This document shows, in pieces, positions 1 to 17,304 of a stretch of 64,000 bases of DNA. Made by a program: the position numbers and the translations under genes. How positions within the stretch are numbered: position 1 is the stretch's first letter; the number at the start of each line of letters is the position of its first letter. The notes beneath the pieces are model-generated. The model had not been told where the DNA came from, made no database searches, and saw only the letters and a program-made list of their open reading frames with translations. Origin of the DNA: Alphaproteobacteria bacterium (GTDB lineage: Bacteria; Pseudomonadota; Alphaproteobacteria; SMXQ01); contig JAURLI010000049.1 in NCBI GenBank assembly GCA_030831315.1, positions 1 to 64,000 of the forward strand, written 5' to 3'.

Positions 1-28
1 CGAAAGTAGCCAAGCGTGCGATCTTCAT
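1..28 (-). CDS. 5' end of an unidentified gene cut by the window edge
   Basis: Nine codons are visible on the minus strand, reading MKIARLATF, starting from an ATG at 28. A purine-rich stretch (AGAGAAGAG) lies a few bases upstream and could serve as ribosome binding site. Many fumarylacetoacetate-hydrolase-family proteins begin in a similar way, and such an enzyme would fit the neighbouring GST and gentisate-dioxygenase-like genes. Nine residues cannot establish a family, so this is only a suggestion. Confidence 0.45.
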
Positions 29-146
29 GTGTGTTCTCTTCTCTAGAGTTGATACACGACCCCCCCAAAGCGGGAGGCCGGTGAAAAGAATACCATTTCC
101 GTAAAGGCTTGGAAGTGGGACCTTTTAGGGAGGGGAAGGCCACGTT

Positions 147-992
147 TCAGGGGGTGGGCGACCATGCCCGGCTGGCCGGATCCCTGAGTTCCAGAACCAT
201 GGAGCGCACCCGGTCGCGGACCTTTTCCCCTTCCGTGCGCATCAGGTCGGTCCAGGTAACGTCCCAGTCGAACCAGTCCAGGATGGCGGTCTTGTAGGCG
301 GGCCGGGCCTTGAGGCGGGCATACCAGGCGGCCACCCGTGGCCGGTCCGCCCACAGGAAATCCATGGCGCAGCAGTTGAGCCGTTCCATGTAGGGGGCGA
401 GCGCGATGTCGGCCAGCGAGTAGTCCCCCACCAGCCAGTCCGGCCCGCCGCCCGCCAGCGCCGCCCCCGGCCCCTTGCCCGACAGGGCCGCATCGATCTG
501 GTCCATCAGCATGTCGTAGCGGCGCATCGCGGTGCGGAAATGGATGTTGTCGATGCCGTCCTCAAACGACGCGATCTTGCGCGCCTGCTTGTAGGGATCG
601 AGCGCGCCCGCGATCTGGTTGCCGTGCGACGCCACGTGCCGATAGGCGACCGCGGTGGTGACGACGCCGGCAGCCGCATGGATATTCTCGTCGGTCATGC
701 GGGTCCAGACCCGCATCTGGGCGAGCCTGTGGGGCTCCTTCGGGCGCAGCGCCGGGTCGGGGAAGACGTCGTCGAGGTATTCGTTGATGACGTTCGATTC
801 GACTAGGGTATGGCCGTCGTGTTCGAGCATCGGCACCAGGCCGAAGGGGTTCTTGGCGAGATATTCGGGCCGGTGCTGGTCGCGCTCGCGCAGGCGGATG
901 ATCTCGCCCTCCCACTTGAGGCCCTTTTCAGCAAGCGCCAGGCGCGTCTTCGCCGCGCAGACCGATGTGTGGTGATGATAGAGATAGAGCAT
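147..992 (-). CDS. Glutathione S-transferase family protein
   Basis: A 281-residue soluble protein with the two-domain GST layout. The N-terminal thioredoxin-like domain (about residues 1-80) carries a Ser/Cys pair in SVCAAKTRLAL where GSTs activate the glutathione thiol, the NPFGLVPML segment with the cis-proline, and the ESNVINEYLDD glutathione-contact segment. The rest is the all-helical C-terminal domain. Start ATG at 992 is preceded by a strong AGGAGGCGG. It lies downstream of ubiD, beyond that gene's terminator, so it probably has its own promoter. In gentisate and lignin-type pathways, GSTs act as maleylpyruvate isomerases or beta-etherases. Either role fits the surrounding catabolic genes but is inferred from context. 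At 281 residues it is longer than the usual 210-230. Confidence 0.9.
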   Translation of the reverse strand: MLYLYHHHTSVCAAKTRLALAEKGLKWEGEIIRLRERDQHRPEYLAKNPFGLVPMLEHDGHTLVESNVINEYLDDVFPDPALRPKEPHRLAQMRVWTRMTDENIHAAAGVVTTAVAYRHVASHGNQIAGALDPYKQARKIASFEDGIDNIHFRTAMRRYDMLMDQIDAALSGKGPGAALAGGGPDWLVGDYSLADIALAPYMERLNCCAMDFLWADRPRVAAWYARLKARPAYKTAILDWFDWDVTWTDLMRTEGEKVRDRVRSMVLELRDPASRAWSPTP

Positions 993-1045
993 TGCCGCCT
1001 CCTAGTTTTGTTGCGCGCAGCATAGCAGACCGCGGTGGCAGGCAA

Positions 1046-1074
1046 GAAAAAGGGGCGGCCTTTTGGGCCGCCCC
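1046..1074 (-). terminator. Rho-independent terminator of the marR-ubiD operon
   Basis: On the minus strand, a 9-bp GC-only stem (GGGGCGGCC and its complement at 1052-1060 and 1066-1074) with a 5-base loop is followed by TTTTTCTT. It lies 25 bases past the ubiD stop and separates ubiD from the GST gene. Confidence 0.85.
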
Positions 1075-1098
1075 CGGTACGCGAGTTTTACGGAACGC

Positions 1099-2571
1099 TT
1101 ACTTCTTCGGTTCGTCGAGGACCCAGCCGAACTTTTCGCGGGTTTCCTTGGCGAGCGCCGGCGACGGCATGTTCACGTGCGGGAACTGGTCGCGCCAGTG
1201 GAACGGACGGCACGCGTCGATGATGGCGCGGCTGTTCGTGAAGTCCTTGGTCTCGCGCTGTTCCGGCGTGATGCGCGGATCGAGCGGGGTGGACCAGGCG
1301 TTCTTGACGATGTCGATGGACGTCGCCGGGTCGGAGCGGGTCACGACGGCCCACATGACCTGTTCCAGGTTGGAGACGTCGATGTCGTCGTCCACCACGA
1401 CCACGTACTTGCCCGCATAGGCGCCGACATGGCACTGGCAGGCGACGTGGCCGGTCTGGCGGGCATGGCCCGGGTAACGCTGCTTGATCGCAACCGCGAC
1501 CATCATGCGCGAGGAGCCGCATTCGTCGGCCCACACGGCGGTCACGTCGGGCACGCCGGCGGCCTGGATGGCGCGCTTGAGCAGGGCCGAACGGGCCACC
1601 GCGCGATAACGGGCCAGCTCATCTGGCGGACGCTGCGGGGGGCACCCGAGGATGATCGGGTCGTTGCGGTGGTAGATCGCCTCGATGTGCATGACCGGTT
1701 CGGGGCGGGTGTCGGAAGCGTAGTAGCCGGTCCATTCGCCGAACGGACCTTCCTGACGCATTTCCTTCGGATCGATCCAGCCTTCGATGACCAGCTCGGC
1801 GTTGGCCGGGAACGGCAGGCCGGTGACCTTGCCCTTCACGCATTCCATCGCCTTGCCGCGGTAGCCGCCGACCAGGTCGTATTCGCACAGGCCGTAAGGA
1901 ACTTCCGAGGAGGCCATCAGGAACATCATCGGATCGCCGCCGACGACGATGCATGCCGGCATCTTCTCGCCGCGCGCCATGTACTTGTCGCGGTGGATAC
2001 GGCCATGCTTGCCCGGGGAGATGTAGAAGCCGACGGTCTTCTTGTCCTGGATCATGACGCGGTAGGTACCGGTGTTGATCCAGTTTTCGTCGGGGTCCTT
2101 GGTGACGTTGTAGGAGCCGGTGCCGATGTAGCGGCCGCCGTCTTCCTCATGCCACTTCGGCGTCGGGAACTTGGTGATGTCGATCTTGTCGCCCGTGAGG
2201 ATGTTTTCGAAGATCGGGCCGGTCTCGACGATCTTGTGCGGGATCGGCTTCTTGGTCTCGGTGATCTCGGCCAGGCCATCGGTCAGCTCGAGCTTCGACA
2301 TGTCGGCCGGGAAACCCAGCGTCATGCCTTTGCGCTTGCCGCCGAAGAAGTTGGTCAGCACGCGGTAGCTCGGGTCGCAGCCCGGGACTTCCGAAAACAG
2401 ACCGCAGGGCGCCGGGTCGGTGTGGTGCAGAAGCTCCGTCACCATGCCGATTTCCTTTTCCCAGCTCAGGCCCTTGAGATAACGCATCTCGCCGAGCTTG
2501 TCCGCCTCTTCGATCCACTGGCGCAGATCTTCGTAGGCGAAACGATGCTGAACGTTCTTTCCTGTCATCAT
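1099..2571 (-). CDS. UbiD family (prenylated-FMN-dependent) decarboxylase
   Basis: A 490-residue member of the UbiD/Fdc family, which uses prenylated FMN to (de)carboxylate aromatic or alpha,beta-unsaturated acids reversibly. The catalytic Arg-Glu-Glu set is visible: R171 in GTYRVMI, then E274 and E279 in EGPFGE, with the same five-residue spacing as E277/E282 of fungal Fdc1. The length is normal for the family. Start ATG at 2571 follows CGGAGCGA; a second ATG comes immediately after. It lies 52 bases downstream of the MarR gene on the same strand and probably shares its transcript. The partner UbiX prenyltransferase is not in this window, so the cofactor must come from elsewhere in the genome. 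In this locus it probably decarboxylates a hydroxylated aromatic acid; the substrate is unknown. Confidence 0.93.
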   Translation of the reverse strand: MMTGKNVQHRFAYEDLRQWIEEADKLGEMRYLKGLSWEKEIGMVTELLHHTDPAPCGLFSEVPGCDPSYRVLTNFFGGKRKGMTLGFPADMSKLELTDGLAEITETKKPIPHKIVETGPIFENILTGDKIDITKFPTPKWHEEDGGRYIGTGSYNVTKDPDENWINTGTYRVMIQDKKTVGFYISPGKHGRIHRDKYMARGEKMPACIVVGGDPMMFLMASSEVPYGLCEYDLVGGYRGKAMECVKGKVTGLPFPANAELVIEGWIDPKEMRQEGPFGEWTGYYASDTRPEPVMHIEAIYHRNDPIILGCPPQRPPDELARYRAVARSALLKRAIQAAGVPDVTAVWADECGSSRMMVAVAIKQRYPGHARQTGHVACQCHVGAYAGKYVVVVDDDIDVSNLEQVMWAVVTRSDPATSIDIVKNAWSTPLDPRITPEQRETKDFTNSRAIIDACRPFHWRDQFPHVNMPSPALAKETREKFGWVLDEPKK

Positions 2572-2623: not shown

Positions 2624-3109
2624 TCACGCGCTGGCGCGGCGGTTGCCCGCCCCGTTCAACGCGGAAATGGGATCGGCGCCCGACTGCTCGAGGTTGTCGA
2701 GCATGCGGACGATGAGGTCGCGGACATGCCGCGCTTCCTCGGGGCTGAAGCCCTTCATCAGGATGGTTTCGTAGTCCTTGAAGTAGACCGGCTGGTGCTG
2801 CAGCGCCAGCTTGCGGCCTTTTGCCGTCAGGCTGATGATCACCGAGCGGCCATCGGCCGCATCGCGGCGGCGCGCGATCAGGCCCATGCCTTCCATGCGG
2901 GTCAGCAGGCGCGACAGGGTCGAAAGTTCCACCCCCGTCAGCCGGGCCACCTCGTTCACCGTGCGGTCGCCCGCCAGCAGGCGGAACAGCACGCGCACGC
3001 CCTCGATCCTGAGGCCGAGCGGGCGCGCCCACTTGTTCACCAGCTCTTCGACCTGGCCGGTGATCAGATGCATCAGGAAGGGTATCGAGCGATCTTCGAT
3101 ATCGCGCAT
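2624..3109 (-). CDS. MarR family transcriptional regulator
   Basis: A 161-residue winged-helix regulator of typical MarR length. The recognition-helix region reads VNEVARLTGVELSTLSRLL, followed by a wing in the segment RRRDAADGRSVIISLT and a C-terminal dimerisation helix. MarR proteins usually bind a phenolic or aromatic ligand and then release DNA, which suits a catabolic locus. I chose the ATG at 3109 because AGGGGA lies five bases upstream; an upstream TTG at 3127 lacks such a site. It probably regulates itself and ubiD, and perhaps the divergent genes to the right. An inverted repeat at 3186-3199 is the best operator candidate. Confidence 0.9.
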   Translation of the reverse strand: MRDIEDRSIPFLMHLITGQVEELVNKWARPLGLRIEGVRVLFRLLAGDRTVNEVARLTGVELSTLSRLLTRMEGMGLIARRRDAADGRSVIISLTAKGRKLALQHQPVYFKDYETILMKGFSPEEARHVRDLIVRMLDNLEQSGADPISALNGAGNRRASA

Positions 3110-3185
3110 GGGTCCCCTGCGTCGCAAACCTCAAGGGCGGGGTTCGCCCCCGCGTTCGTGTTGGGGCGGAACATGACTCCATTTA

Positions 3186-3199
3186 GTTGCAAACGCAAC
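3186..3199. promoter_or_regulatory. Candidate MarR operator (inverted repeat)
   Basis: GTTGC-AAAC-GCAAC is a perfect 5-bp inverted repeat in an AT-rich patch 77 bases upstream of the marR start. Further TTGCAA-like half sites flank it. Its position suits autoregulation of marR-ubiD. No binding data exist here; this is inference from symmetry and position. Confidence 0.4.
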
Positions 3200-3263
3200 A
3201 ATTGAATTTGCAAGGAATCCCTTGGCCTTACCAGCGGTATTCTCGGTACCAGTTTATGGGAGC

Positions 3264-4013
3264 CTAGAAAATGCCGCGGCGGATGAGGTTGAGGCCGATC
3301 ACCACCATCGTCACCAGCAGGATCTTGCGGAACAGATCCTGGTCGATCTTGCCGCGCAGCCACTGGCCGACGACGAGGCCGACCATGACCGGGGCAAGGG
3401 TGAGAAGGCCGGGAATGACGTGGCGCCATTCCAGCACGCCGAAAGAGACGAAGGAGAAACCGGCAGGCACCAGCGTCAGAAGATAGACGAGGCCGATGCA
3501 GCCGATGAACTCCTCTTTCTTCAGCTTCAGCGCGACGTAATACATGATCACCGGCGGACCGCCGATCAGCGCGAGGCCGCCGAAGAACCCGCCCGCCGCC
3601 CCCGCCAGCACGCCAAGCGGGCGTTCCCAGCGCGGTCCGATGACGAAACTCGGCCGGGCGAGCGAGGCGGCGGCAAACACCGCGATGGCGAGGCCGAGCA
3701 CCACAGACACCATCGCCGTGTCGAGACGCACGAGGGAAAACGTGCCGACCCAGACGAACAGGCACAGCATCGTCAGCAGCAGCCAGAAGCGCTTGAGCGC
3801 CATCTTCAGGTGCCCGCCCGCGATGGCCTGGTAGAAATTGGTGGCGAGAATCGGGAAATAGAGCATCGCCACCGCGTCGCGGATGGGAATGACGCTCGAC
3901 ATGATGGGCAGTGCCACCATCGGCAGCCCGACGCCGAGCACGCCCTTGGAAAAGCCGCCGAGCGCGAGAGCCAGCGCGGCAACGGCAAGGGTGGTGGTGG
4001 TAAAATCGGACAC
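3264..4013 (-). CDS. TauE/SafE family membrane permease
   Basis: A hydrophobic protein of 249 residues with about eight predicted membrane helices. It has the family's repeated architecture: a glycine-rich N-terminal segment (GGFSKGVLGVGLPM) and a second copy (AAGGFFGGLALIGGPPVIMYY) with the GGPP motif. The family moves anions such as sulfite, sulfoacetate or organic acids across the inner membrane. I chose the GTG at 4013 because GGGGGAA lies just upstream; the longer reading from 4073 adds a basic stretch with no membrane character. It sits between the marR-ubiD pair and the divergent hydratase gene, so it may export or import a pathway acid. The transported substrate is unknown. Confidence 0.85.
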   Translation of the reverse strand: MSDFTTTTLAVAALALALGGFSKGVLGVGLPMVALPIMSSVIPIRDAVAMLYFPILATNFYQAIAGGHLKMALKRFWLLLTMLCLFVWVGTFSLVRLDTAMVSVVLGLAIAVFAAASLARPSFVIGPRWERPLGVLAGAAGGFFGGLALIGGPPVIMYYVALKLKKEEFIGCIGLVYLLTLVPAGFSFVSFGVLEWRHVIPGLLTLAPVMVGLVVGQWLRGKIDQDLFRKILLVTMVVIGLNLIRRGIF

Positions 4014-4141: not shown

Positions 4142-5011
4142 ATGTCCAGCGAAGACAGCAGCGAAGATTTTTCCGACTGGGTCGGGCGCAGCGAAGATGT
4201 CCGTGACGTCATCGCGCCGATGCGCGTGGCGGAACTGAACGCGACGATCGATCGCGATGATGGCTTTCCTGTCCGTGGCGATGCCTTGCCCGCTCTTTAT
4301 CACTGGATGTTCGGGGCGTTTCTCGGCCTCGCCAAGACTTCCGACCTCGGCCCCGACGGGCATCCCAGGCGCGGCCTTTTCCTGCCGCCGATCCGCCTGC
4401 CCAGGCGCATGTGGGCCGCTTCCGACGTGACCTTTCATGGACCCCTTTCGGTCGGCGATGAAATTTCCCGCCACGCTGTGATTGAGAAGATAGAGGACAA
4501 GGCCGGGCGGTCGGGGCGTCTTACCTTCGTCACGGTGCGTCACGACTATTCCGGGGCCGCGGGCCTTGCACTGACCGACCGCCAGACCATCGTCTACCGC
4601 GAAGCCCCCGCGGACTCCGAGCGCGGCAGGGAACCGCCGACCAAACCGGCGCCCGCTGATGCCGCCTTTTCGCGCCGCCTCGTGCCCGATGTGGCGATGC
4701 TGTTTCGCTACTCGGCGCTGATCTTCAACGCGCACCGCATTCATTTCGATCAGCCGTTCGTCACCGTAGAGGAAGGCTATCCCGGCCTCGTCGTGCACGG
4801 GCCGCTGATCGCCACGCTGCTCGCCGACCTGTTGCGCCGCGAAAGGCCCAATGCGGACATCGCGCGCATCCGTTTCCGTGCCGCCGTACCGCTGTTTGCC
4901 GCGCGCGAAATGACCGTCGCCGGGCGCGAGACGGACACGGGCTTCCGCCTGTGGGCCGCCAACGACGCGGGTGGTTTTGCCGCCGAAGCGGATATAGAAA
5001 CAAGACGTTAG
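4142..5011 (+). CDS. MaoC-like / mesaconyl-C4-CoA (3-methylfumaryl-CoA) hydratase family protein
   Basis: A 289-residue double-hotdog protein resembling 3-methylfumaryl-CoA (mesaconyl-C4-CoA) hydratases and other FAS1-type dehydratases. The N-terminal hotdog contains the LPRRMWAASDVTFHGPLSVGDEI segment. The C-terminal hotdog contains HRIHFDQPFVTVEEGYPGLVVHGPL, in which the aspartate and histidine of the hydratase site are recognisable. The ATG at 4142 is preferred over an upstream ATG at 4082 because the extra residues look non-coding; a TATACAAT sequence lies at 4111-4118. It is the first gene of the rightward catabolic arm, 16 bases before the ferredoxin reductase. It probably hydrates an unsaturated acyl-CoA formed after ring cleavage, or is a C5-acid enzyme. 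The exact substrate is not determinable. Confidence 0.78.
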   Translation: MSSEDSSEDFSDWVGRSEDVRDVIAPMRVAELNATIDRDDGFPVRGDALPALYHWMFGAFLGLAKTSDLGPDGHPRRGLFLPPIRLPRRMWAASDVTFHGPLSVGDEISRHAVIEKIEDKAGRSGRLTFVTVRHDYSGAAGLALTDRQTIVYREAPADSERGREPPTKPAPADAAFSRRLVPDVAMLFRYSALIFNAHRIHFDQPFVTVEEGYPGLVVHGPLIATLLADLLRRERPNADIARIRFRAAVPLFAAREMTVAGRETDTGFRLWAANDAGGFAAEADIETRR

Positions 5012-5027: not shown

Positions 5028-6242
5028 ATGGACAGCATCGTCATCATCGGCGCGGGACACGCGGGCGGGCGCGCGGCCGAAGCCCTGCGCGCCGCGGGCT
5101 TTGCCGGGCGCATTGCGCTGATCGGCGCAGAATCCCACCTGCCCTACGAACGCCCGCCGCTGTCGAAGGAACTGCTCGCGGGCACGATGGAGGTGGAGAA
5201 GCTCACCTTCAATCCCGACAGTTTCTATGCGGAAAAGAACATCGACCTGCATCTCGGGATCGAGGCGCAGGAGATCGAGCTTAACCTCAAACGCGTGCGG
5301 CTCTCCGACGATACCGACCTGCATTTCGACAAGCTTTTGCTCGCGACCGGCGGGCGGGTGCGCCGCTTGTCGTGCCCCGGCGCTGGTCTTTCGGGCGTGC
5401 ATTACGTGCGCGACATCAACGATACCCTGCGGCTCCGCCCCGAACTGGAAGACGGCCGCCGCGTCGTCGTCATCGGCGGCGGCTTCATCGGTCTGGAAGT
5501 CGCGGCGACGGCGCGCAAGCGCGGCTGCCACGTCACCGTGGTCGAGCTTGCCGACCAGGTGCTGGCGCGCGTTGCCGATCCGTCGGTGGGCGCGCTGGTG
5601 GCCGACATGCACCGCGCGAACGGCGTGCATATCCTTACCGGCGTTTCGGTCGAGCGGCTCGAGGGCGATACGGAGGTGGCCGAAGTCGTCTGCACAGACG
5701 GCGAGACCATCGATACTGATCTCGTCGTTGCCGGCATCGGTATCCTGCCAAACAAGGAAATCGCCGAAAAGGCGGGCATCGTTTGCGCGAACGGCATCAC
5801 CTGCGACGAGTTCGGGCAAACCTCGGCCGCGGGCGTCTATGCCGCGGGCGACGTGGCGTTCCATTACAACCCGATCCTGAAGCGGCACCTGCGTCTCGAA
5901 TCCTGGGCCAATGCCCAGAACGGCGCCATCGCGGTGGCGCGCAACATGGTGCTCGATCCGGTTCCTTACGCCGAGGTGCCGTGGTTCTGGTCGGACCAGT
6001 ATGACCTGAACCTTCAGGTGGCGGGCGCACCGGAAAGCTGGGACCGGCTGGTGGTGCGCGGCGACCCGGCGGCGAAGAAGGGTATCGTGTTCTACATGGC
6101 CGCTGACAGCGTGGTCGGCGCCACCGCTTTCAACCAGGGGCGCGAGATGCGCTTCCTCAAACGCCTGATCGAAACCGGCAAGGCCGTCGCCGACGGTGAT
6201 CTCGCCGACGAGGGCAAGAAGCTGCGCGATCTGGCGGGCTGA
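5028..6242 (+). CDS. FAD-dependent ferredoxin reductase (Rieske oxygenase type)
   Basis: A 404-residue NAD(P)H:ferredoxin reductase of the putidaredoxin-reductase/BphA4 type. An FAD-binding GAGHAGGRAAEAL motif lies at the extreme N-terminus. A second Rossmann motif for NAD(P)H (VVIGGGFIGLEVAATA) lies near residue 150. The FAD-contact motif GVYAAGDVA lies near residue 270, and a short C-terminal domain follows. The ATG at 5028 follows GGGGAG by eight bases. It is 16 bases after the hydratase gene and close to a Rieske ferredoxin at 6463. These two, with the oxygenase subunits at 11150-13036, complete a three-component ring-hydroxylating system. It should pass electrons from NAD(P)H to the Rieske ferredoxin in the cytoplasm. 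Confidence 0.9.
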   Translation: MDSIVIIGAGHAGGRAAEALRAAGFAGRIALIGAESHLPYERPPLSKELLAGTMEVEKLTFNPDSFYAEKNIDLHLGIEAQEIELNLKRVRLSDDTDLHFDKLLLATGGRVRRLSCPGAGLSGVHYVRDINDTLRLRPELEDGRRVVVIGGGFIGLEVAATARKRGCHVTVVELADQVLARVADPSVGALVADMHRANGVHILTGVSVERLEGDTEVAEVVCTDGETIDTDLVVAGIGILPNKEIAEKAGIVCANGITCDEFGQTSAAGVYAAGDVAFHYNPILKRHLRLESWANAQNGAIAVARNMVLDPVPYAEVPWFWSDQYDLNLQVAGAPESWDRLVVRGDPAAKKGIVFYMAADSVVGATAFNQGREMRFLKRLIETGKAVADGDLADEGKKLRDLAG

Positions 6243-6462: not shown

Positions 6463-6768
6463 ATGGCAGCCCATCTTGTCGCGAAGACCAGCGAGATCGC
6501 CGAAAACGAGGCGAAGAAGGTCATCATCGGCGATCAGCACATCGCCATTTACAACCTCGGCGGCGAATTCTTCGCCTCCGACGACATCTGCACCCACGCC
6601 TATGCGTCGCTGGCCGAAGGCTACATCGAGGATGGCTGCGTTGAATGCCCGCTGCACGCGGGGCGTTTCGACATCAAGACCGGCAAGGCCCAGGGCGTGC
6701 CGGTGACCGAGGACCTCAAGACCTTCAAGGTGAAGGTCGAGGGCGACAGCATCTACGTCGAGGTCTGA
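6463..6768 (+). CDS. Rieske [2Fe-2S] ferredoxin
   Basis: A 101-residue soluble ferredoxin with the Rieske ligand pattern: C43-T-H45, sixteen residues, then C62-P-L-H65. The length is typical of ferredoxins that serve ring-hydroxylating oxygenases (about 100-110). The ATG at 6463 follows GGGGAGAGGC directly, which rules out the longer upstream reading. It lies 22 bases before the first CMD-like gene, so it starts the main rightward operon. It should carry electrons from the reductase at 5028-6242 to the oxygenase alpha subunit encoded on the opposite arm. Confidence 0.92.
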   Translation: MAAHLVAKTSEIAENEAKKVIIGDQHIAIYNLGGEFFASDDICTHAYASLAEGYIEDGCVECPLHAGRFDIKTGKAQGVPVTEDLKTFKVKVEGDSIYVEV

Positions 6769-6790: not shown

Positions 6791-7375
6791 ATGGCGGACA
6801 ATCCCGACACCATCGGCGCGGATATCCTTCCGCGCATCGACTTCGAAGCCTTCGAAGAGGAGCTTCGCGAATCGCTCCGCCCGAAGGTGGAGCGGCTCGG
6901 CTATTGCGGCGAGATCTGGCAGATCGGCGCCAATACGCCGAAATCCACGTTCCATTTCTCGGAACTGACCGAGGCGCTCAAGAACGAGATGGAGATGAAG
7001 ACCGTGGAACTGGTCGCCCTTACGGCGGCCGGGGTCATGGGCAACGTCTATGAAAAGAACCAGCACGAACGGCTGGCCGACAAGCTCGGCTACGGGCGCG
7101 ACTGGATTGCCCAGGTCAACGAGTTGCAGGCCCAGAAGGGCAAGCACATGACGGACGCCGAATGCGCCGTGCAGAAATTCGTGATGGCGGCGATCTATCG
7201 CCGTGGCCACGACTGCACGCCGCTGTTCAAGGACGTCATCGCCGCCATCGGCCCCGAACAGGCGGTCGGCGTGCTGTGGTCGGTCGGTCGCTGCGTCATG
7301 CACGCGGTGTTCCGCAATACTTTGGGGCTGGAACCGCCGGTCGGTTCGATCTTCGAGAAAAAGGCGGGCAAATGA
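6791..7375 (+). CDS. CMD/AhpD-like protein, first of a tandem pair
   Basis: A 194-residue, mostly helical protein that resembles the carboxymuconolactone decarboxylase-like fold. I do not recognise a specific named family. It opens with LPRIDFEAFEEELRESLRP and ends with GLEPPVGSIFE; both are shared with the next gene product. The CxxC redox pair of AhpD is absent. The stop overlaps the next start as ATGA, which implies translational coupling and perhaps a heteromeric complex. Inside a ring-hydroxylation operon it could handle a lactone or an unstable ring intermediate; no reaction can be assigned. Confidence 0.7.
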   Translation: MADNPDTIGADILPRIDFEAFEEELRESLRPKVERLGYCGEIWQIGANTPKSTFHFSELTEALKNEMEMKTVELVALTAAGVMGNVYEKNQHERLADKLGYGRDWIAQVNELQAQKGKHMTDAECAVQKFVMAAIYRRGHDCTPLFKDVIAAIGPEQAVGVLWSVGRCVMHAVFRNTLGLEPPVGSIFEKKAGK

Positions 7376-10136: not shown

Positions 10137-11048
10137 GTGATCAAGCTCAAGAAGGATTTCCTGAAGGGTTCCTACCCGCCGATCATCACGCCGTTCAAGC
10201 CGAACGGGGACGTGGATTTCGACTCGTTCCGCAAGTGCGTCGATTTCTCGATCCGCAACGGCAGCCACGGCGTGCTGATTTCGGGGACTACGTCGGAACC
10301 CTCGACGCTGACGATCGAAGAGCGCATCCAGCTCTACAAGGAAGCGATCGACGTGAACAAGGGCCGGGTGCCCGTGGTCTGCGCCACCGGTTCCCAGTCC
10401 GAGCGCGAGACGCAGATCCTGACCGACGGGGCGGAAAAGGCGGGCGCCGATGCGCTGCTCGTCGTGACGCCCTATTACATCCGCCCGCCCCAGCGCGGCC
10501 TTGCCCAGTACTACATCAACCTGTGCAAGCGCACTTCCCTGCCGGTGATGATCTATCACATCCCCGGCCGCACGGTGGTGTCCATGCAGCTCAACACGCT
10601 GAAGGACATCTGCGAAAAGGCGCCGAACATGGTCGGCATGAAGCATGCGGTCAATGACCTCGGCTTCGTCACCCACATGCTGGCGGAATTCGGCATGGAA
10701 TGGCGCGTCTTCGTCGGGCTCGAGGATCTGTCCTTCCCGATGATGACGATCGGCGCCTGCGGCCTGATGAATGCCGTCGGCAACCTGCATCCGAAGAAGC
10801 TCTCCCAGATGTGCGAGGCGGTGTTCAAGGGCGACCTCAAGGCCGCCCAGAAGCTGCACTACGAACTGGCCGAGCTGAACGAGGCGGTGTTCTACGACAC
10901 CAACCCGATCCCCATCAAATACATGATGTGGAAGATGGGCCTGATCGCCAAGAACAGCCACCGCCTGCCGATGGCTCCGGCGACGGCCGAACTCGGCAAG
11001 CGCCTCGACGGCGTGATGAAGCGCGCCGGCCTGAAGGCCAAGCGCTAG
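10137..11048 (+). CDS. DapA-family (dihydrodipicolinate synthase-like) aldolase/lyase
   Basis: A 303-residue TIM-barrel protein of the DHDPS / N-acetylneuraminate lyase superfamily. Visible features are GTTSEPSTLTIEER (pyruvate carboxylate binding), YYIRPPQRG, the YHIPGRT segment with the conserved tyrosine, and the Schiff-base lysine in VGMKHAVND. The start is GTG at 10137, one base after the dioxygenase stop. Relatives in aromatic pathways include hydratase-aldolases that release pyruvate. The position after a ring-cleaving dioxygenase makes a C-C lyase role more likely than lysine biosynthesis. The exact substrate is not evident. Confidence 0.85.
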   Translation: MIKLKKDFLKGSYPPIITPFKPNGDVDFDSFRKCVDFSIRNGSHGVLISGTTSEPSTLTIEERIQLYKEAIDVNKGRVPVVCATGSQSERETQILTDGAEKAGADALLVVTPYYIRPPQRGLAQYYINLCKRTSLPVMIYHIPGRTVVSMQLNTLKDICEKAPNMVGMKHAVNDLGFVTHMLAEFGMEWRVFVGLEDLSFPMMTIGACGLMNAVGNLHPKKLSQMCEAVFKGDLKAAQKLHYELAELNEAVFYDTNPIPIKYMMWKMGLIAKNSHRLPMAPATAELGKRLDGVMKRAGLKAKR

Positions 11049-11149: not shown

Positions 11150-11779
11150 TTAAATCGGGTAGATGATCGAGGCGGGCACCAGCACCGAGTCGAACACGCA
11201 GATCTTTTCCTTGAACTTGAGGCGGCCGTTCTGGCGCACGATCTTGTCGAGGTAGCGCCCGGCGTTGAGGGTCTGGGTGTACTGGTTGGGCAGGGTTTCC
11301 ATCACTACGTAATTGGCGCAGGTCTCGACCACGCCGTTCTTCTCGCCGAGCACGCGGGTATTGGTGATGAAGTGCTTGGTGTAGCGTTCGTGATAGACGG
11401 TGGTCTTCTTCACCGACACGACGCGATCGAGCAGGCCGCCGCGCTTTTCGGCGAACATGGTGCCGAGCGGCAGGCCGAGGTCCCAGTTCTCCCGGCTGAC
11501 CAGCTTGTAGAGGCAGTCGTCGGTGAAGAAATCGGGCCAGTCGTCGATCGAGCCGTGATCGAGGGTATGGGCATAGGCCGCATGCAGTTCCTCGATCTCG
11601 AGCTTCAGCATCAATTCGTTGCCGATGCGGGCGCTGGCGACGGAGCGCGCGCCCTTCGTCTTCTTGGCGGACGCCTTGCGGGCGGGCGCCTTCTTCGCTG
11701 CGGCTTTCTTCTTCGCTGCCTTGCGGGTGGTCGCCTTTTTGGCGGTCTTCTTGCGGGTCTTCTTTGCTGCTCTTGCCAT
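11150..11779 (-). CDS. Ring-hydroxylating oxygenase beta subunit with a lysine/alanine-rich N-terminal tail
   Basis: A 209-residue protein. From about residue 56 it is a normal small subunit of an aromatic-ring-hydroxylating dioxygenase: a SnoaL/NTF2-like fold with LEIEELHAAYAHTLDHG, WPDFFTDDCLYKL and a closing IYPI. The first 51 residues are an extra tail built almost only of Lys, Ala, Arg and Thr, with 22 basic residues and no acidic residue before position 55, like the tails of bacterial histone-H1-like proteins. The ATG at 11779 lies three bases after the alpha-subunit TAA, which argues that the tail is translated. Beta subunits are normally structural, supporting the alpha3beta3 hexamer. 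A DNA- or RNA-binding or electrostatic role for the tail is speculation. Confidence 0.88.
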   Translation of the reverse strand: MARAAKKTRKKTAKKATTRKAAKKKAAAKKAPARKASAKKTKGARSVASARIGNELMLKLEIEELHAAYAHTLDHGSIDDWPDFFTDDCLYKLVSRENWDLGLPLGTMFAEKRGGLLDRVVSVKKTTVYHERYTKHFITNTRVLGEKNGVVETCANYVVMETLPNQYTQTLNAGRYLDKIVRQNGRLKFKEKICVFDSVLVPASIIYPI

Positions 11780-11782
11780 TGC

Positions 11783-13036
11783 TTACAGTCCCATGATCTG
11801 GCGGTAGGCCTTGTAGAAGGCGCGGATCGAGCTTTCGGTCACCATGTGCGGCGTGTTTTCGGTGTCGCGGCCGCCCATTTCGACGACGGCCTTGGCTTCC
11901 GGGTACCGCGACAGGCCCGACTGGCACGATTCCATCACTTCCGAATCGTCGACTGAAACGAAGCCTGCCGGGCCCATCAGGTTGGCCTGGCGCAGGCGGC
12001 GCATGGTCATCGCCTCGTCGTCGGTTTCGTAGCCGAAGAAGGTCCAGTGCAGTTCCATCTCTTCGGGCTTGAAGCAGCGGATCTGGCGCATGGCGACGGT
12101 GTTCGACTGCTGCTGGATGATCAGGTTCGGGAAGAAGGTGTGCATGACCACCGTTTCCGTACCCTTGGATACCCATTCGGGGAAGGGCTGCAGCATGTCG
12201 GGGTTCTGCAGCTTGAGATCGGGGTCGAGCTGGCGGATGTCGAGGTTCTCGCTCGTCACCTTCTGTTCGCCGCGGGTGGCCGCCTGGATGGCGTGGAAAC
12301 CGGTCGGGTCGTTTTCGACCTTGGCCGGTGTGTCGGCCCGGAACAGGCCGAAGGACACCAGGAACACGTGCAGCAGGCTGGCGTGGTAGGGGTCCTTGAT
12401 GTTCTCGAACTTGATCTTCCAGTTGGCGCGGATGCGCTGGCGCGAATAGCCGAGCACGTGCAGCTTGCGGCCGTCGAACACGCGGTTGAAGTAATGCATC
12501 ATCAGCGGGCCGAAGTAGTCGTCGACGCTCGGCATGTCGTGGCTGAAGGAGGCGAAGATCACACCGTTGCGCACCTCCACCTTCATGGCCTGAAGGCTCC
12601 AGTCCTCCATGCGGAAGTCGGCGGGCATGCCGCCCTGCTTCTTCACGCCGCGGCGGAAAGGCACGCCGATCAGCTTGCCGTCGAGCTGGTAGGTCCACTG
12701 GTGATAGGGGCAGATGAATTCCTTGGTGTTGCCGTGCTCCTGATAGCAGAGCTTGACGCCGCGGTGCGCGCATCGATTGGCCAGCACCCGTACCGAACCG
12801 TCAGTGTCGCGGCAGAAGATCACCGGCTTGTCGCCGATGAAGGTGCGGCGGTAATCGCCGGGGTTCGGGATCTCGCATTCGAGGCCGACGAAGTTGTAGG
12901 TGCGCCCGCCGAAGATGACATCCATTTCCTTCTGGAAGATCTTGGGGTCGGAGTAGACCCAGTAAGGCACGCGGGTGAACCCTTCTTCGGGCCACTTGCG
13001 TTCGGCAGCGGGGGTATTGGAAAGCACGGTCGCCAT
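11783..13036 (-). CDS. Ring-hydroxylating oxygenase alpha subunit (Rieske)
   Basis: A 417-residue catalytic subunit. The Rieske cluster ligands are C89-A-H91 and C109-P-Y-H112. The mononuclear iron site reads N212, D215, H218 and H223, the usual N-x2-D-x2-H-x4-H pattern, with the bridging aspartate D215 present. The downstream acidic segment SVDDSEVME supplies a candidate carboxylate ligand. I chose the ATG at 13036 because AGGAAA lies seven bases upstream; the longer reading adds 25 non-homologous residues. The length resembles salicylate-5-hydroxylase-type and benzoate/phthalate-type subunits. Beta follows immediately. Electron supply is likely from the ferredoxin and reductase on the facing arm. 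The substrate is probably an aromatic carboxylate, given the transporter and decarboxylases nearby. Confidence 0.93.
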   Translation of the reverse strand: MATVLSNTPAAERKWPEEGFTRVPYWVYSDPKIFQKEMDVIFGGRTYNFVGLECEIPNPGDYRRTFIGDKPVIFCRDTDGSVRVLANRCAHRGVKLCYQEHGNTKEFICPYHQWTYQLDGKLIGVPFRRGVKKQGGMPADFRMEDWSLQAMKVEVRNGVIFASFSHDMPSVDDYFGPLMMHYFNRVFDGRKLHVLGYSRQRIRANWKIKFENIKDPYHASLLHVFLVSFGLFRADTPAKVENDPTGFHAIQAATRGEQKVTSENLDIRQLDPDLKLQNPDMLQPFPEWVSKGTETVVMHTFFPNLIIQQQSNTVAMRQIRCFKPEEMELHWTFFGYETDDEAMTMRRLRQANLMGPAGFVSVDDSEVMESCQSGLSRYPEAKAVVEMGGRDTENTPHMVTESSIRAFYKAYRQIMGL

Positions 13037-13220: not shown

Positions 13221-15158
13221 TCAGTGTGCGCCCTTGCGCTTTTTCGCCTTCAGCCACATGCGGTTGGTGCTGATGGTGGCTGCCGCGATGGCGAGGCCGG
13301 TGAAGGTCGAAAGATGGAACGGCGTGATCATGAACAGGCCGGCGATGCCCATCAGAACGCGGCCCCACCATTCGGCGCAGATCGGCTCATAGCTCTCGAT
13401 TGCCGCGGCGACGAAGATCAAGCCGATAGTCGCGGTGACGAAGGTGATCGCCGTCTGCCACAGGGGCCCGATCCACAACAGCTCCGGCCCATAGACGAAG
13501 GTGAAGGGCACAAGGAATGCGGCCAGCGCGAAGCGCGTCGCGTGGCCGGCGATGGACAGCGGGTTGTCTCCTGATATCGATGATGCCGCGTAGGCCGCCA
13601 CCGCCACGGGCGGGGTCAGGGCGCTGAGCACCGCGAAATAGAGCAGGAACAAGTGGCCTGGCAGGGCGTCGATCTTGAGGTCGACCATCAGCGGCCCCAT
13701 CAGCACCGCCGCCAGGATGTATGCCGACGGCGTCGGCATGCCCATGCCCAGCACGATGGTGAGTGCGGCTGCGACCAGCAGGGTCAGCAGCACCTCGGCG
13801 CTGGTGATCATGTAGACCACGTGGGCGAACTTGGCCGCGAGGCCGGTCATGGTGATGCCGGCGATGACGAGGCCGGCTGCCGCGGTGGCGCCTGCCACGG
13901 GTACCGAGCGCATGGAGGTTTCCGCAACCGCCTTGTAGGCCTTGACCAGGTTGATGCGCGTGTCCTTGCGTAGCGCCGCGACGGCGATCACGGCGAGGGT
14001 GCCGTAAACGGCGACCATGCTCGGCGAATAACCCTCGAGCAGGGCCCAGACGAGGACCACCAGCGGCACGATGAACATGCCGCCGTTCTTGAGGGTAGCG
14101 AAGAATGCCGGGATCTGGTTGGGATCCATGCCGCCGAAGCCGAGGCGCACGGAGCGGAAATGCACCTGCGAATAGACGCCGACGTAATAGAGGATCGCAG
14201 GCAACAGCGCCGCGACGGCGATTTCCGCGTAATCGATGCCGGTATATTCCGCCATGATGAAGGCGGCCGAACCCATCACGGGGGGCATGATCGAACCCCC
14301 GGTGGAGGCCGCCACCTCGATACCGCCGGCAACCGCGCCGGTGTAGCCGACGCGCTTCATCACCGGGATGGTGACGGAGCCGGTGGTGACGACGTCGGAC
14401 GTCGGGCTGCCCGAAATCATGCCGTACATGCCTGACGATACGACGGCCACCTTGGCCGGGCCGCCCGGCCGCTTGCCGGCGATGGAGGCAGCGAAATCGT
14501 AGAAGAAATCGGCGCCCTTGGCGGCATAGAGGAACGTCCCGAACAGCACGAACATGAAGGCATAGGTCGCGGCCACGCGCACCGGCAGGCCCATGATGCC
14601 ATCGGTCGTGTAGACCATGATGTCGAGGAAATGGTTGTAGTCGATGTAGCCGTGCTTCAGCACGCCCGGCAGCAGGTGGCCGAGGAAGTTATAGGCGACG
14701 AAAATCAGCACCACGACCGTGAGGCCGAGGCCCGTCGTGCGCCGCGTAATTTCGATCGACAGAAGGAACGCGACCGTGCCGAAAAACATTTCAATCGGCG
14801 TCAGCGCCCAAAGGAGCGAAATGCGGTTGGCGATATCATCGGCGACGACGAAGAAGTAGGCACCGGTCGACATGGCAAGCCCGAACAGGATCCAGTCGAT
14901 CACCGAAGGCTTGTTCGGATCGGAGTCCGGCCTTGCGCCGACGGTCAGGAAGGCCAGCGCCATCATGCTCAGCAGGAACACCGCGGCGAGAGGCCACGGG
15001 TCGATGATGATGAACGTCGCCGCCGATATGACGTAGACGCCGATGATGAAGGCGAAGGGCGTAATCAGCCCCCAGTTGAGCCATCCCTTGGGATCGCGGC
15101 GGCATCCCACCGAAAACCAGGTTCCGGGATCGAGGAGTTTGTTCTTTTTCCGGGCCAT
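13221..15158 (-). CDS. TRAP transporter fused permease (DctQM type)
   Basis: A 645-residue inner-membrane protein with roughly 15-18 hydrophobic segments, matching TRAP permeases in which small and large subunits are fused. Recognisable DctM-like stretches include ISGSPTSDVVTTGSVTIP, STGGSIMPPVMGSAAFIMAE and LGMGMPTPSAYILAA. It uses a sodium gradient to import an organic acid delivered by a periplasmic binding protein. The TAXI protein upstream (15254-16246) is the obvious partner, and fused permeases typically pair with TAXI proteins. A 12-bp hairpin lies between the two genes. The oxygenase alpha gene follows after 184 bases. It probably imports the aromatic acid that the locus degrades. 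Confidence 0.92.
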   Translation of the reverse strand: MARKKNKLLDPGTWFSVGCRRDPKGWLNWGLITPFAFIIGVYVISAATFIIIDPWPLAAVFLLSMMALAFLTVGARPDSDPNKPSVIDWILFGLAMSTGAYFFVVADDIANRISLLWALTPIEMFFGTVAFLLSIEITRRTTGLGLTVVVLIFVAYNFLGHLLPGVLKHGYIDYNHFLDIMVYTTDGIMGLPVRVAATYAFMFVLFGTFLYAAKGADFFYDFAASIAGKRPGGPAKVAVVSSGMYGMISGSPTSDVVTTGSVTIPVMKRVGYTGAVAGGIEVAASTGGSIMPPVMGSAAFIMAEYTGIDYAEIAVAALLPAILYYVGVYSQVHFRSVRLGFGGMDPNQIPAFFATLKNGGMFIVPLVVLVWALLEGYSPSMVAVYGTLAVIAVAALRKDTRINLVKAYKAVAETSMRSVPVAGATAAAGLVIAGITMTGLAAKFAHVVYMITSAEVLLTLLVAAALTIVLGMGMPTPSAYILAAVLMGPLMVDLKIDALPGHLFLLYFAVLSALTPPVAVAAYAASSISGDNPLSIAGHATRFALAAFLVPFTFVYGPELLWIGPLWQTAITFVTATIGLIFVAAAIESYEPICAEWWGRVLMGIAGLFMITPFHLSTFTGLAIAAATISTNRMWLKAKKRKGAH

Positions 15159-15196
15159 GACGGGTCCAGTTTCTTGTCCGAGGGGCTATAGGGAAA

Positions 15197-15224
15197 CGGG
15201 GAAACGGCTCGGGCCGTTTCCCCG
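15197..15224 (-). promoter_or_regulatory. Intercistronic hairpin between TRAP binding protein and permease
   Basis: A perfect 12-bp stem (15197-15208 and 15213-15224) with a TCGG/CCGA loop lies 30 bases after the binding-protein stop and 38 bases before the permease start. On the transcribed strand it is followed by TTTCCCTAT, a poor terminator tail. Such a structure could partly terminate transcription or stabilise the upstream message, giving more binding protein than permease. Confidence 0.65.
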
Positions 15225-15253
15225 TCGGTATGTCTCAGGCGATTCCCGCCCGA

Positions 15254-16246
15254 TTACTTTGCCAGACCGGCTTCCCGGTAGGCCTTGAGCGCGCCCGGAT
15301 GATGCGGTGCAACGCTGCCTTCGGCAAGCGACTGCGGCGTCGTCGCCTTCTGGAGCGCGCGGTGTGCGCTGCGGAAGGTATCGATATTTGTAAGCACGCC
15401 CTTGACGATCTTGTAGGCGGTCTCATCCGGCATGTCCTTGTGGACCATGACCACGCCGCCCACGCAATGGGACAGCTTGTCTTCCTGGATGAACTTGTAC
15501 TCGCTTGCCTTGATCGTGCAGGCCTTGCCACCGAAGTCCGCGATCATCGCGTCGACGGCCTTCTGGCTCAGTCCGATCATGTTGAGCGGGATGCCCTTGT
15601 CAAGTTCGCGGATGCGCGCATGGTTGAAGGAGATGCCGAACACCTGCATGTCGATGCGGCGGTCCTGCATCAGCGACGTCATTTCCTGCGACGCAGCGCG
15701 CACGGCCTGCTTGAACGGCTTAATGTCGACGCCGCTCTTGGTGAAGGACGCGATGCCGATTTCGCCGTCGATATTGCCGGGGCGGTTGAAGGCAACGCGC
15801 AGGTTCTTCTGGTGCTTCTTAACGTCATCCATGGTCTTGATGCCGTACTGCTTGGCGACATCGCCGTTGATCAGTACGTGCATGTACTGGAAGCGGCTTT
15901 CGGCCGAATAGACGCGCAGCAGAACGCGCAGGTCCTTCTGGGGCTTGCCCTTGTAGGGGCCGATACCGCGGTAGCCCCATGCCAGTTCCGGATCGACGGC
16001 GAGGCCCATCGGCACCTTCTTGTCCTGCACCAGCTTGGCATTGGCGAGACCGCCGCCGCCCGTCTGGTAGGTGACCGTGGAGCCCGGATAGGCCTTGGCG
16101 AGCGTCTTGTCGAGGCCGGCGCCGAGCGCGGACCACAAGCCGCCCGGGCTGGCGCCTGCCAGCGTCAGGTTGAACTTGTCCTGGGCGACGGCCGGGGCCG
16201 CGGCGAAAGCGGTTGCGGCGAGTACGCCGATGAACAGTTTACGCAT
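15254..16246 (-). CDS. TAXI family TRAP transporter solute-binding protein
   Basis: A 330-residue periplasmic binding protein. A Sec signal peptide of about 22 residues (basic MRK, hydrophobic core, cleavage after AVA) is clear. The mature N-terminus reads FNLTLAGASPGGLWSALG, a TAXI-family signature (SPGG-x-W), followed by TYQTGGGGLANAKLV. The ATG at 16246 follows CAGGGAGA. It is the partner of the fused permease just downstream and lies 68 bases after the dihydroxyphthalate-decarboxylase-like gene. The ligand is probably an aromatic carboxylate, from context only. Confidence 0.92.
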   Translation of the reverse strand: MRKLFIGVLAATAFAAAPAVAQDKFNLTLAGASPGGLWSALGAGLDKTLAKAYPGSTVTYQTGGGGLANAKLVQDKKVPMGLAVDPELAWGYRGIGPYKGKPQKDLRVLLRVYSAESRFQYMHVLINGDVAKQYGIKTMDDVKKHQKNLRVAFNRPGNIDGEIGIASFTKSGVDIKPFKQAVRAASQEMTSLMQDRRIDMQVFGISFNHARIRELDKGIPLNMIGLSQKAVDAMIADFGGKACTIKASEYKFIQEDKLSHCVGGVVMVHKDMPDETAYKIVKGVLTNIDTFRSAHRALQKATTPQSLAEGSVAPHHPGALKAYREAGLAK

Positions 16247-16314
16247 ATCAGTCTCCCTGATTTGGTTTGCTTGAGACGGGGGTGGTTGGAGTGAGTACTT
16301 CTGCTCCGGAATTT

Positions 16315-17304
16315 CTATATTTTGCTGCGCTCAAGGGTGGAGGGTACGAAGATTTCCTCCGCCGTCAGGCGTCGTGAAGCAAGTCCCTGATCGAAATGAT
16401 ACCTTATAAAGGCCTCGACAGTCTTGCGGTTTTCGTCCAGCCCGTAGGGCCAGAAATCGTTGCCCATCAAGGCCTTGGCTTCCGCCGTATAGGCTTCCAT
16501 CCAGGGGTTGGTGGCGCGCGGGCTGTTGTCGTAGGCGACCTCCTGATAGGCCAGCGCCTTGGCCTGTTCGAAGGCCTTGAACACGCTGTCGGGCAGCCAC
16601 GGGTTCTCGGCCACCATTTTCTTGTGGATGCCGACCAGGTGCATGATCGGGAAGATCCCGGTGCGCTTGAAGTAGTCCTGCTCGGTCTTGATGAAGTCCG
16701 GCCACAGGCGCGCGACGTCCGGGTGGCCCTTGACGTAGCAGGTGGGTGAGCGCGGCGCGATGATGGCGTCCAGTTCGTTGTCGGCCAGCATCTGCTGCAG
16801 CGTCTTGCCCTTGGGAATGGCTGTCAGGCTGAGACCCTTGGGCGGGGTGAAATGCGTCTTCTGGGTACGCCCCGCCTGTTCGAGGCCGCCCCAGCGCCAG
16901 TCGACGTCCGACGGCTTCACGCCGTATTCGTCTTCGAGCACGCCGCGCACCCAGGTGACGGCGGTCACCTGGTATTCGGGGGTGCCCACCCTCTTGCCCT
17001 TCAGGTCCTTCGGCTTCTTGATGCCGGACTTTTTGTTGATGAACACGCCCGAGTGGCGGAACTTGCGTGCCGGAAAGGCAGGGATCGCGATATAGGGGCA
17101 ATCGCCATCCGCCGTCATCGTCAGGTAGTTCGAGAACGACAGTTCGGTGACGTGGAACTCTTCGTAATGGAGCGCCCGGTGGAACATTTCTTCCGGTTCC
17201 ACTTCGAGCACCGTCGCATCGCAGCCTTCGATCCTCACCCGGCCGTCGAGAAACGGGCGGGTGCGGTCGTACAGCGTGACCGCGACCGTGAGTTTCAGCG
17301 TCAT
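16315..17304 (-). CDS. 4,5-dihydroxyphthalate decarboxylase-like protein
   Basis: A 329-residue protein with the periplasmic-binding-like fold of 4,5-dihydroxyphthalate decarboxylases (Pht5-like), but without a signal peptide, so it acts in the cytoplasm. Characteristic segments are LYDRTRPFLDGRV, EMFHRALHYEEFHVTELSFSNY, YIAIPAFPARKFRHSGVFIN and LDAIIAPRSPTCY. The ATG at 17304 is chosen because homology begins exactly there. The longer reading from 17427 is not credible. It is the first gene of the leftward arm, ahead of the TRAP genes. With UbiD it gives the locus two candidate decarboxylases. Relatives include proteins of unknown substrate, so phthalate is only one possibility. Confidence 0.88.
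   Translation of the reverse strand: MTLKLTVAVTLYDRTRPFLDGRVRIEGCDATVLEVEPEEMFHRALHYEEFHVTELSFSNYLTMTADGDCPYIAIPAFPARKFRHSGVFINKKSGIKKPKDLKGKRVGTPEYQVTAVTWVRGVLEDEYGVKPSDVDWRWGGLEQAGRTQKTHFTPPKGLSLTAIPKGKTLQQMLADNELDAIIAPRSPTCYVKGHPDVARLWPDFIKTEQDYFKRTGIFPIMHLVGIHKKMVAENPWLPDSVFKAFEQAKALAYQEVAYDNSPRATNPWMEAYTAEAKALMGNDFWPYGLDENRKTVEAFIRYHFDQGLASRRLTAEEIFVPSTLERSKI

Follow-up and report, generated by a model that had tools for sequence, protein, structure and literature searches.

What compound is broken down, and by which route, when a Rieske oxygenase, two decarboxylase-like proteins and a putative ring-cleavage dioxygenase with two cupin domains (a bicupin) are encoded side by side? The question is raised by positions 1 to 17304 of a 64000-base stretch, called the window here (bases 1-64000 of contig C30), of the genome of a largely uncultured alphaproteobacterium (2.7 Mb, 89 contigs, 99.2% completeness). 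The bicupin gene (8999..10135, + strand) is followed by a gene for a class I aldolase of the DapA/dihydrodipicolinate synthase (DHDPS) fold (10137..11048, +), a proposed 2-oxo-diacid hydratase-aldolase. From the way in which DapA is exchanged for other enzymes in related loci, we conclude that it most likely hydrates a C7 2-oxo-diacid and splits it into pyruvate and a C4 semialdehyde. We put at about even odds the view that the locus as a whole makes up a complete unit for the catabolism of an aromatic carboxylic acid, with an undescribed ring-cleavage module at its centre.

Gene content and conservation

Open reading frame calling and family scans recovered all of the genes that a preliminary description of the locus had named, including those for UbiD and dihydroxyphthalate-decarboxylase-like proteins, a DapA-type aldolase, a glutathione S-transferase (GST) and a MarR regulator; all have unbroken reading frames and match their families well. 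The genes form two arms that converge at about 11.05-11.15 kb. The + arm encodes a MaoC-like protein, a ferredoxin reductase, a Rieske ferredoxin, two carboxymuconolactone-decarboxylase-like proteins (CMD1 and CMD2), an ornithine-cyclodeaminase-like protein (OCD), the bicupin and DapA, and the - arm encodes the beta and alpha subunits of the Rieske oxygenase, a TAXI permease, a TAXI binding protein and the dihydroxyphthalate-decarboxylase-like protein (DHPD). The Rieske system is indeed three-component and split across the converging arms, as had been described, with the reductase and ferredoxin on the + strand and the alpha and beta subunits on the - strand. TauE, MarR, UbiD and GST genes make up the left part, all on the - strand. 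The DHPD start codon (17304) marks the end of the locus, and beyond it the sequence reads as a COX15-like housekeeping gene; base 1 is the contig edge, so that the cluster may extend past it.

A genome-wide search for the same gene set, which had been suggested as a check, recovers it from sister genera and from bacteria further away. Nine of the ten same-family genomes searched have the bicupin, as does, with substantial identity, one genome of another family; one more match at class level is weak, and in a class sample 8 of 289 genomes hold the gene. A scan of 84,980 species genomes yielded 80 loci, whose hosts are marine and freshwater Rhodospirillales-type bacteria, sphingomonads, Paraburkholderia, Defluviicoccus, gammaproteobacteria and actinobacteria, and further genome sampling mostly re-found known loci. 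Gene order is preserved in the same-family genomes (loci L031-L037 and L046) and partly in the other family (L044). These syntenic copies hold DapA, bicupin, OCD and CMD together with the ferredoxin and reductase and, as far as each contig reaches, variously the Rieske alpha and beta subunits, the TAXI transporter, DHPD, TauE, MarR and UbiD; the recurring core in neighbourhood maps is [CMD]-OCD-bicupin-[DapA]. Because gene order is kept in this way, the set is not a chance assembly; it is a conserved catabolic unit. The presence of all genes, and the retention of the same set in sister genera and more distant bacteria, make the cluster a real functional unit.

Exchange of DapA for HpaH and HpaI

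Adjoining the bicupin in 88 loci, a count that includes related loci and some short contigs, we found DapA in 52 and HpaH in 14, and never both; HpaI is present in 12 of the loci, each time with HpaH. HpaH is 2-oxo-hept-4-ene-1,7-dioate hydratase, and HpaI is 4-hydroxy-2-oxoheptanedioate aldolase. Most sphingomonad loci have this hydratase and aldolase after the bicupin in place of DapA, often with a succinate-semialdehyde-dehydrogenase-like aldehyde dehydrogenase (ALDH) next to them, and the copies tested pass the equivalog cut-offs (355 against 351.5 for HpaH, 402 against 368.8 for HpaI). Both enzymes of Cupriavidus necator pBB1 also score over the cut-offs (446 and 402, respectively). In a maximum-likelihood phylogeny built from 89 bicupins, the state of the lower route, DapA or HpaH, changes at least four times, for example between the sister rows L112 (DapA) and L103/L120 (HpaH). 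This non-orthologous replacement is good evidence that one enzyme, DapA, covers the reactions of both HpaH and HpaI, and the assignment of the lower route is fairly well supported.

The DapA sequences themselves point to the chemistry. Lys169 (the Schiff-base residue), Tyr140 and Arg145 are invariant in 44 of 44 sequences, and Arg145, the counterpart of DHDPS Arg138, the residue that binds the carboxylate of aspartate semialdehyde, would suit a C4 semialdehyde product. The acyclic intermediate of DHDPS, 4-hydroxy-2-oxo-6-aminoheptanedioate, differs from the HpaI substrate by an amino group at C6, so the reverse reaction by a DapA-like enzyme is chemically plausible. The best NCBIfam score is to TIGR02313 (2,4-dihydroxyhept-2-ene-1,7-dioate aldolase), at 307 bits under a cut-off of 396.7. 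A lysine-biosynthetic role is disfavoured by the catabolic context and by a separate DapA homologue in the genome (contig C34, 36% identical), which could be the housekeeping enzyme. Action of DapA on a C7 2-oxo-diacid in turn makes an acid of the salicylate type the probable substrate of ring cleavage. If this reading is right, the locus offers a clean case of one DapA-fold enzyme substituting for a hydratase plus an aldolase.

The bicupin dioxygenase

The bicupin had been called gentisate-dioxygenase-like, which holds for its fold and iron site. The best fold matches of its AlphaFold2 model (mean pLDDT 79.9) are salicylate 1,2-dioxygenase (SDO; E 4e-20) and gentisate dioxygenases (GDOs), and the putative iron site, His284/His286/His325, lies in the C-terminal cupin. 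These three residues and His327 (SDO 119, 121, 160 and 162) are invariant in 37 bicupin sequences, as is Arg248 (SDO Arg83). The likeness fails by score and by pocket residues: the protein scores 61.9 bits with the gentisate 1,2-dioxygenase model TIGR02272, whose cut-off is 442.1, and Gln108, Arg127, Trp172 and Asp174 of SDO and GDO are replaced by Thr273, Asn292, Glu336 and Thr338. All GDOs are said to have these four residues (PMC11264262), and because they are replaced, the bicupin, judged by its sequence, is not a gentisate dioxygenase by the defining features of that family. Arg127 is also absent from 5-nitrosalicylate dioxygenase, which carries Tyr there in the same alignment, so the loss of this arginine does not exclude salicylate-type cleavage. 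The best NCBIfam model is that of the 5-aminosalicylate dioxygenase MabB, at 79 bits against a cut-off of 650.

Profile searches align the C-terminal cupin with the N-terminal iron cupin of the 3bu7, 2d40 and SDO entries, and the N-terminal cupin with their C-terminal cupin. The order of the domains thus appears to be swapped relative to SDO and GDO, with the caution that all cupins are related.

A second bicupin type is full-length in other same-family genomes. At G000:C33:38559-38792 (L045:13560-13793) it is represented by a 78-residue C-terminal fragment, 92% identical to the full-length copy in a same-genus genome (L041), and the remainder went undetected within the 20 kb inspected. Near this second type, L040, L041, L043 and L045 carry tandem secreted proteins that resemble solute-binding subunits (12 copies over the four loci). 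In five Defluviicoccus loci (L064, L073, L081, L100 and L108) the pair of bicupin and DapA genes adjoins what read as conserved ribosomal protein L15-like and SecY-like genes, and a protein of the amidohydrolase-2 family, possibly a decarboxylase, is encoded nearby.

The OCD-like and CMD-like proteins

The OCD-like protein (7950..8951, +; PF02423, E 4.9e-41) has the OCD/mu-crystallin fold of an oxidoreductase and may use NAD(P)H to reduce the product of ring cleavage. Of 72,556 plasmid records, eight have a member of the OCD subfamily (E below 1e-50), and exactly these eight have the bicupin (E below 1e-40, sphingomonad query). The catalytic Asp of the family (OCD Asp228; aligned on alanine dehydrogenase 1omo) is Ile225 in 48 of 48 ungapped rows, and Lys74 and Arg110 are invariant in 50 of 50, features by which the protein is placed in a new subfamily with the catalytic Asp replaced. 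Mu-crystallin, likewise without the Asp, is among its nearest solved relatives. The idea that the protein is an ordinary deaminase was dropped, as the catalytic Asp is missing.

CMD1 (6791..7375, +) has the carboxymuconolactone-decarboxylase fold (AlphaFold2 pLDDT 91.7; Foldseek matches 6e8l and 3lvy of the AhpD/CMD family) and keeps the conserved Glu-His motif within YExxQHE; its fold agrees with the family, and its PF02627 score is 19.6 for a threshold of 23. CMD2 (7372..7917, +) overlaps the CMD1 gene by 4 bases. It is a paralogue with 41% identity to CMD1, has Asn for the His of the motif and gives no PF02627 match; the pair may assemble into a hetero-oligomer in which one subunit is inactive. 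By raw counts OCD and CMD are strongly linked, 39 loci having both and 31 having neither. Replacement of CMD by a protein of the fumarylacetoacetate hydrolase (FAH) family was also considered, on the basis of four CMD-less loci with FAH-family genes; three of these genes were tested and fell below the HpaG cut-off, one of the loci also has a GST gene, and so few cases do not support a claim.

The proposed route

An aromatic acid would be taken up by the TAXI-TRAP transporter and converted by the Rieske oxygenase, UbiD and the DHPD-like protein to a 2-hydroxybenzoate-type (salicylate-type) acid, possibly with a second carboxyl group. The bicupin would cut the ring between the carbons that bear the carboxyl and hydroxyl groups. 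The product, an unsaturated 2-oxo-heptanedioate or a carboxylated form of it, would be brought to the level of a C7 2-oxo-diacid by the OCD-like protein (through reduction) and the CMD-like proteins (through decarboxylation or isomerisation). Hydration and retro-aldol cleavage by the DapA-like enzyme would then yield pyruvate and succinate (or fumarate) semialdehyde. The scheme balances from 2-hydroxyterephthalate (C8H6O5): addition of O2 would give C8H6O7, and 2[H] would convert this to C8H8O7, with the formula and skeleton of 5-oxopent-3-ene-1,2,5-tricarboxylate; loss of CO2 would leave C7H8O5, the HpaH substrate, and hence pyruvate and succinate semialdehyde. Plain salicylate would balance in two ways, through reduction of the diene by OCD or, with no reduction, through release of fumarate semialdehyde. 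The roles of OCD as reductase and CMD as decarboxylase come from this balance of carbon and hydrogen; each chemical step, the order of the steps and the substrate are what we infer.

The sequence of import, hydroxylation, decarboxylation and ring cleavage given in the preliminary description is well supported as a plan. Its end, isomerisation and lysis, is not, and the last C-C cleavage is better assigned to DapA. In general form, we tentatively propose, at somewhat less than an even chance, that bicupin, OCD, CMD and DapA (or HpaH plus HpaI) constitute an unrecognised central pathway, in which a mono-hydroxylated aromatic (di)carboxylic acid would undergo direct opening by a swapped-domain bicupin, ene reduction by an OCD-fold enzyme, decarboxylation by a CMD-fold enzyme and a split to pyruvate and succinate semialdehyde. 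The entry modules (Rieske oxygenase, UbiD and a dihydroxyphthalate-type decarboxylase) would be interchangeable.

Several observations weigh against this proposal. The replacement of the four SDO/GDO pocket residues makes salicylate uncertain as the bicupin substrate, and the DapA-like protein also exceeds the cut-off for ordinary dapA (TIGR00674, 260 against 206). The window is without HpaH, HpaI or a semialdehyde dehydrogenase, and the sphingomonad ALDH has its closest counterparts in the rest of the genome at 31-33% identity. We know of no precedent for an OCD-fold enzyme that reduces an ene-oxo acid. The linkage of OCD to CMD is not significant by phylogenetically independent pairs, and some loci with bicupin and DapA lack OCD and CMD both.

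Some of these enzymes would also fit an amino-aromatic substrate such as an aminosalicylate, from which the bicupin would form an enamine or imine, to be reduced or deaminated by OCD and split by DapA into pyruvate and aspartate- or succinate-semialdehyde. MabB is the best NCBIfam model of the bicupin, though far under its cut-off, OCD-family enzymes act on imines and count the Asp-less mu-crystallin among the nearest solved relatives here, and DHDPS chemistry handles aspartate semialdehyde. We consider such a substrate unlikely: the catalytic Asp of OCD and alanine dehydrogenase is Ile throughout, HpaH and HpaI of sphingomonads and Cupriavidus act on nitrogen-free C7 diacids, and no deaminase or amidase was recognised among the locus genes.

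Entry steps and regulation

TAXI-TRAP import had been claimed for the locus, and both parts exceed their family cut-offs: the fused permease (13221..15158, -) scores 563.5 bits with TIGR02123 (cut-off 320.65), and the solute-binding protein (15254..16246, -) scores 132 bits with TIGR02122 (cut-off 84).

The alpha subunit of the Rieske oxygenase (11783..13036, -; residues numbered on the 442-residue reading frame 11783-13111) belongs to the salicylate-oxygenase family, its nearest solved structure being NagG of salicylate 5-hydroxylase (7c8z, E 4.5e-132, 49% identity). Arg342, the carboxylate-binding arginine (Arg309 of terephthalate dioxygenase, Arg323 of NagG), is kept in all copies examined, and the enzyme is predicted to act on aryl carboxylates, nearest to salicylate 5-hydroxylase. 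Its pocket, as aligned, fits neither relative: the pocket Trp and Met257 of NagG are Phe257 and Gln276 here (Leu in most relatives), and the signature N224, S243 and R390 of terephthalate dioxygenase (PMC9060491), which is 39% identical, reads Phe257, Gln276 and Met423. AromaDeg contains several clusters of salicylate-5-hydroxylase relatives without known function (PMC4250580). Electrons would come from an FAD-dependent ferredoxin reductase (5028..6242, +; NF041682 AndAa, 389 bits, below the cut-off of 650) and a Rieske [2Fe-2S] ferredoxin (6463..6768, +; PF00355, E 1.6e-20). The beta subunit (11150..11779, -; PF00866, E 1.3e-12) has an unusual lysine-rich N-terminal tail. This tail, about 46 codons long, is lysine/alanine-rich and histone-H1-like (MARAAKKTRKKTAKKATTRKAAKKK...), with a weak match to PF07382 HC2 under the cut-off; a longer tail of the same kind occurs in another genus (L034), and none in L032, L035 or L044.

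UbiD (1099..2571, -; TIGR00148, 287.6 bits, cut-off 244.85) belongs to the prenyl-FMN decarboxylase family and would serve a peripheral entry step. Its best solved relative is 7pda (E 6e-110), the motif EGPFGE can be read in the sequence, and ubiX lies elsewhere in the genome (237 bits, over the cut-off). The DHPD protein (16315..17304, -), 4,5-dihydroxyphthalate-decarboxylase-like, matches PDB 9jp7 with E 1.3e-100; it is probably cytosolic, since its N-terminus, MTLKLTVAVTLYDRTRPF, does not read as a signal peptide. In one bicupin locus (L085:4465-5367) a quinolinate phosphoribosyltransferase-like gene stands beside the DHPD gene, a neighbour that is either fortuitous or a possible sign of a connection to pyridine carboxylates. 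UbiD, DHPD and Rieske alpha show 12-14 changes each on the bicupin tree, as expected of interchangeable entry modules, which they look like. Three Paraburkholderia clusters add genes for an enoyl-CoA hydratase-family protein, a MaoC protein, a CoA ligase and an ALDH; the one enoyl-CoA hydratase-family protein tested (L071) exceeds the cut-off for p-hydroxycinnamoyl-CoA hydratase/lyase, so this clade may feed the route from hydroxycinnamates.

The MarR-family regulator (2624..3109, -; PF12802/PF01047) has a candidate operator upstream of its gene, the 21-base motif CAATTGTTGCGTTTGCAACTA (3184..3204, -). The 19-base core is conserved in three genera and recurs exactly in L031, L035 and L047 and in no other of 132 loci; the motif is single-copy in the window, where 0.03 copies would be expected by chance with 3 mismatches. 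An operator shared by both arms was sought in the window and only the marR candidate was found, which leaves co-regulation of the two arms by MarR unsupported.

Three genes at the left complete the locus. A TauE/SafE-family membrane transporter (3264..4013, -; PF01925, E 4e-28), possibly an anion exporter, also occurs in L031, L033, L035, L044 and L046, and the MaoC/FAS1-dehydratase-like protein (4142..5011, +; PF13452, E 2.4e-8) is kept only in closer relatives. The GST family protein at the contig edge (147..992, -; PF02798; maiA TIGR01262, 73.7 bits against a cut-off of 171) was found among the relatives only in the same-genus genome (L031/L047), and need not belong to the pathway.

Alternative uses of the gene set

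The gain and loss of UbiD, DHPD and Rieske oxygenase genes on the bicupin tree, and the single candidate operator at marR, would also be consistent with two separate jobs: Rieske oxygenase, UbiD, DHPD and TAXI proteins would turn a phthalate isomer into protocatechuate or a similar product, and bicupin, DapA, OCD and CMD would serve another compound. DHPD is strongly similar to 4,5-dihydroxyphthalate decarboxylase, and the alpha subunit has the identity to terephthalate dioxygenase given above. Such a division is improbable, in that the converging arms stay together in several genera and in one other family, N224 and S243 of terephthalate dioxygenase are absent and R390 aligns with Met, and no second ring-cleavage gene was recognised in the locus.

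The gentisate pathway, with a GST isomerase and an FAH hydrolase, was the preliminary description's point of reference. The Rieske enzyme would be a salicylate 5-hydroxylase, the bicupin would act on gentisate, GST would isomerise maleylpyruvate, and the FAH hydrolase would be encoded elsewhere. The nearness of Rieske alpha to NagG, the GDO/SDO fold of the bicupin, the GST gene at the locus edge and one locus (L105) that groups Rieske oxygenase, bicupin, FAH-family and GST genes all speak for it. We give it little chance: the bicupin misses the GDO score and pocket residues by the values given, the GST is below its cut-off and not conserved, family scans found no FAH-family hydrolase among the locus genes, the pocket Trp and Met of NagG are Phe and Gln/Leu in the clade, and DapA or HpaH plus HpaI would have no role. 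The least probable alternative is that the bicupin is a hydroxynaphthoate dioxygenase like PhdI and DapA a carboxybenzalpyruvate hydratase-aldolase like PhdJ in the degradation of polycyclic aromatics, a pairing known for such enzymes, in line with several sphingomonad and Paraburkholderia hosts and with a solved SDO that binds 1-hydroxy-2-naphthoate (PMC11264262), but at odds with the replacement by HpaH and HpaI, which indicates a C7 diacid and not a benzo-fused product, with the invariance of Arg145, which would bind a carboxylated aldehyde, and with the lack of recognised upper genes for polycyclic aromatic hydrocarbons (PAHs) in the locus.

Comparison with known systems

The preliminary description could name no pathway for this mix of genes, and we too found no described match: no open-licence paper was found that describes a gene set of OCD, cupin, Rieske oxygenase and DapA, and known superfamilies stand here in a combination not found described. 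From a PAH cluster of a marine Roseobacter a GDO-like enzyme with 26% identity to PhdI is reported, in a paper that mentions neither OCD nor decarboxylases, and an annotated Paraburkholderia plasmid labels the genes generically as cupin, hypothetical protein and ornithine cyclodeaminase. Should the proposed route be right, marine and freshwater alphaproteobacteria, sphingomonads, Paraburkholderia and actinobacteria would have a further way of opening the ring of aromatic acids. The proposal gives testable functions to a bicupin clade, an Asp-less OCD-fold subfamily and a CMD-fold family whose Pfam signal is very weak or absent.

Several of its parts resemble described systems. With NagGH and its ferredoxin and reductase (7c8z) the locus shares a three-component Rieske system, close alpha subunits and the carboxylate-binding Arg, whereas the pocket Trp and Met of NagG are exchanged. 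DHPD matches 4,5-dihydroxyphthalate decarboxylase (9jp7) over nearly its whole length, and the phthalate dioxygenase that partners the latter was not recognised here. The salicylate and gentisate 1,2-dioxygenases (2phd, 3bu7 and 2d40) have the same bicupin fold, three-His iron site and equivalents of SDO His162 and Arg83, but their iron cupin is the first domain and here it is the second, Arg127/Gln108/Trp172/Asp174 are Asn/Thr/Glu/Thr, and the score is far under the family cut-off; MabB is the best-scoring model and yet far from reached. PhdI and PhdJ of 1-hydroxy-2-naphthoate degradation are likened by gene pairing, from established knowledge, a bicupin dioxygenase being followed by a DapA-fold hydratase-aldolase; here OCD and CMD are added, HpaH and HpaI interchange with DapA, and no naphthalene or phenanthrene genes were recognised. 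The lower pathway of homoprotocatechuate (4-hydroxyphenylacetate) meta-cleavage has the same proposed end steps on a C7 2-oxo-diacid, with HpaH and HpaI present in the sibling clusters, whereas the window, in which no HpaD, HpaE or HpaG was recognised, has a single DapA-fold enzyme.

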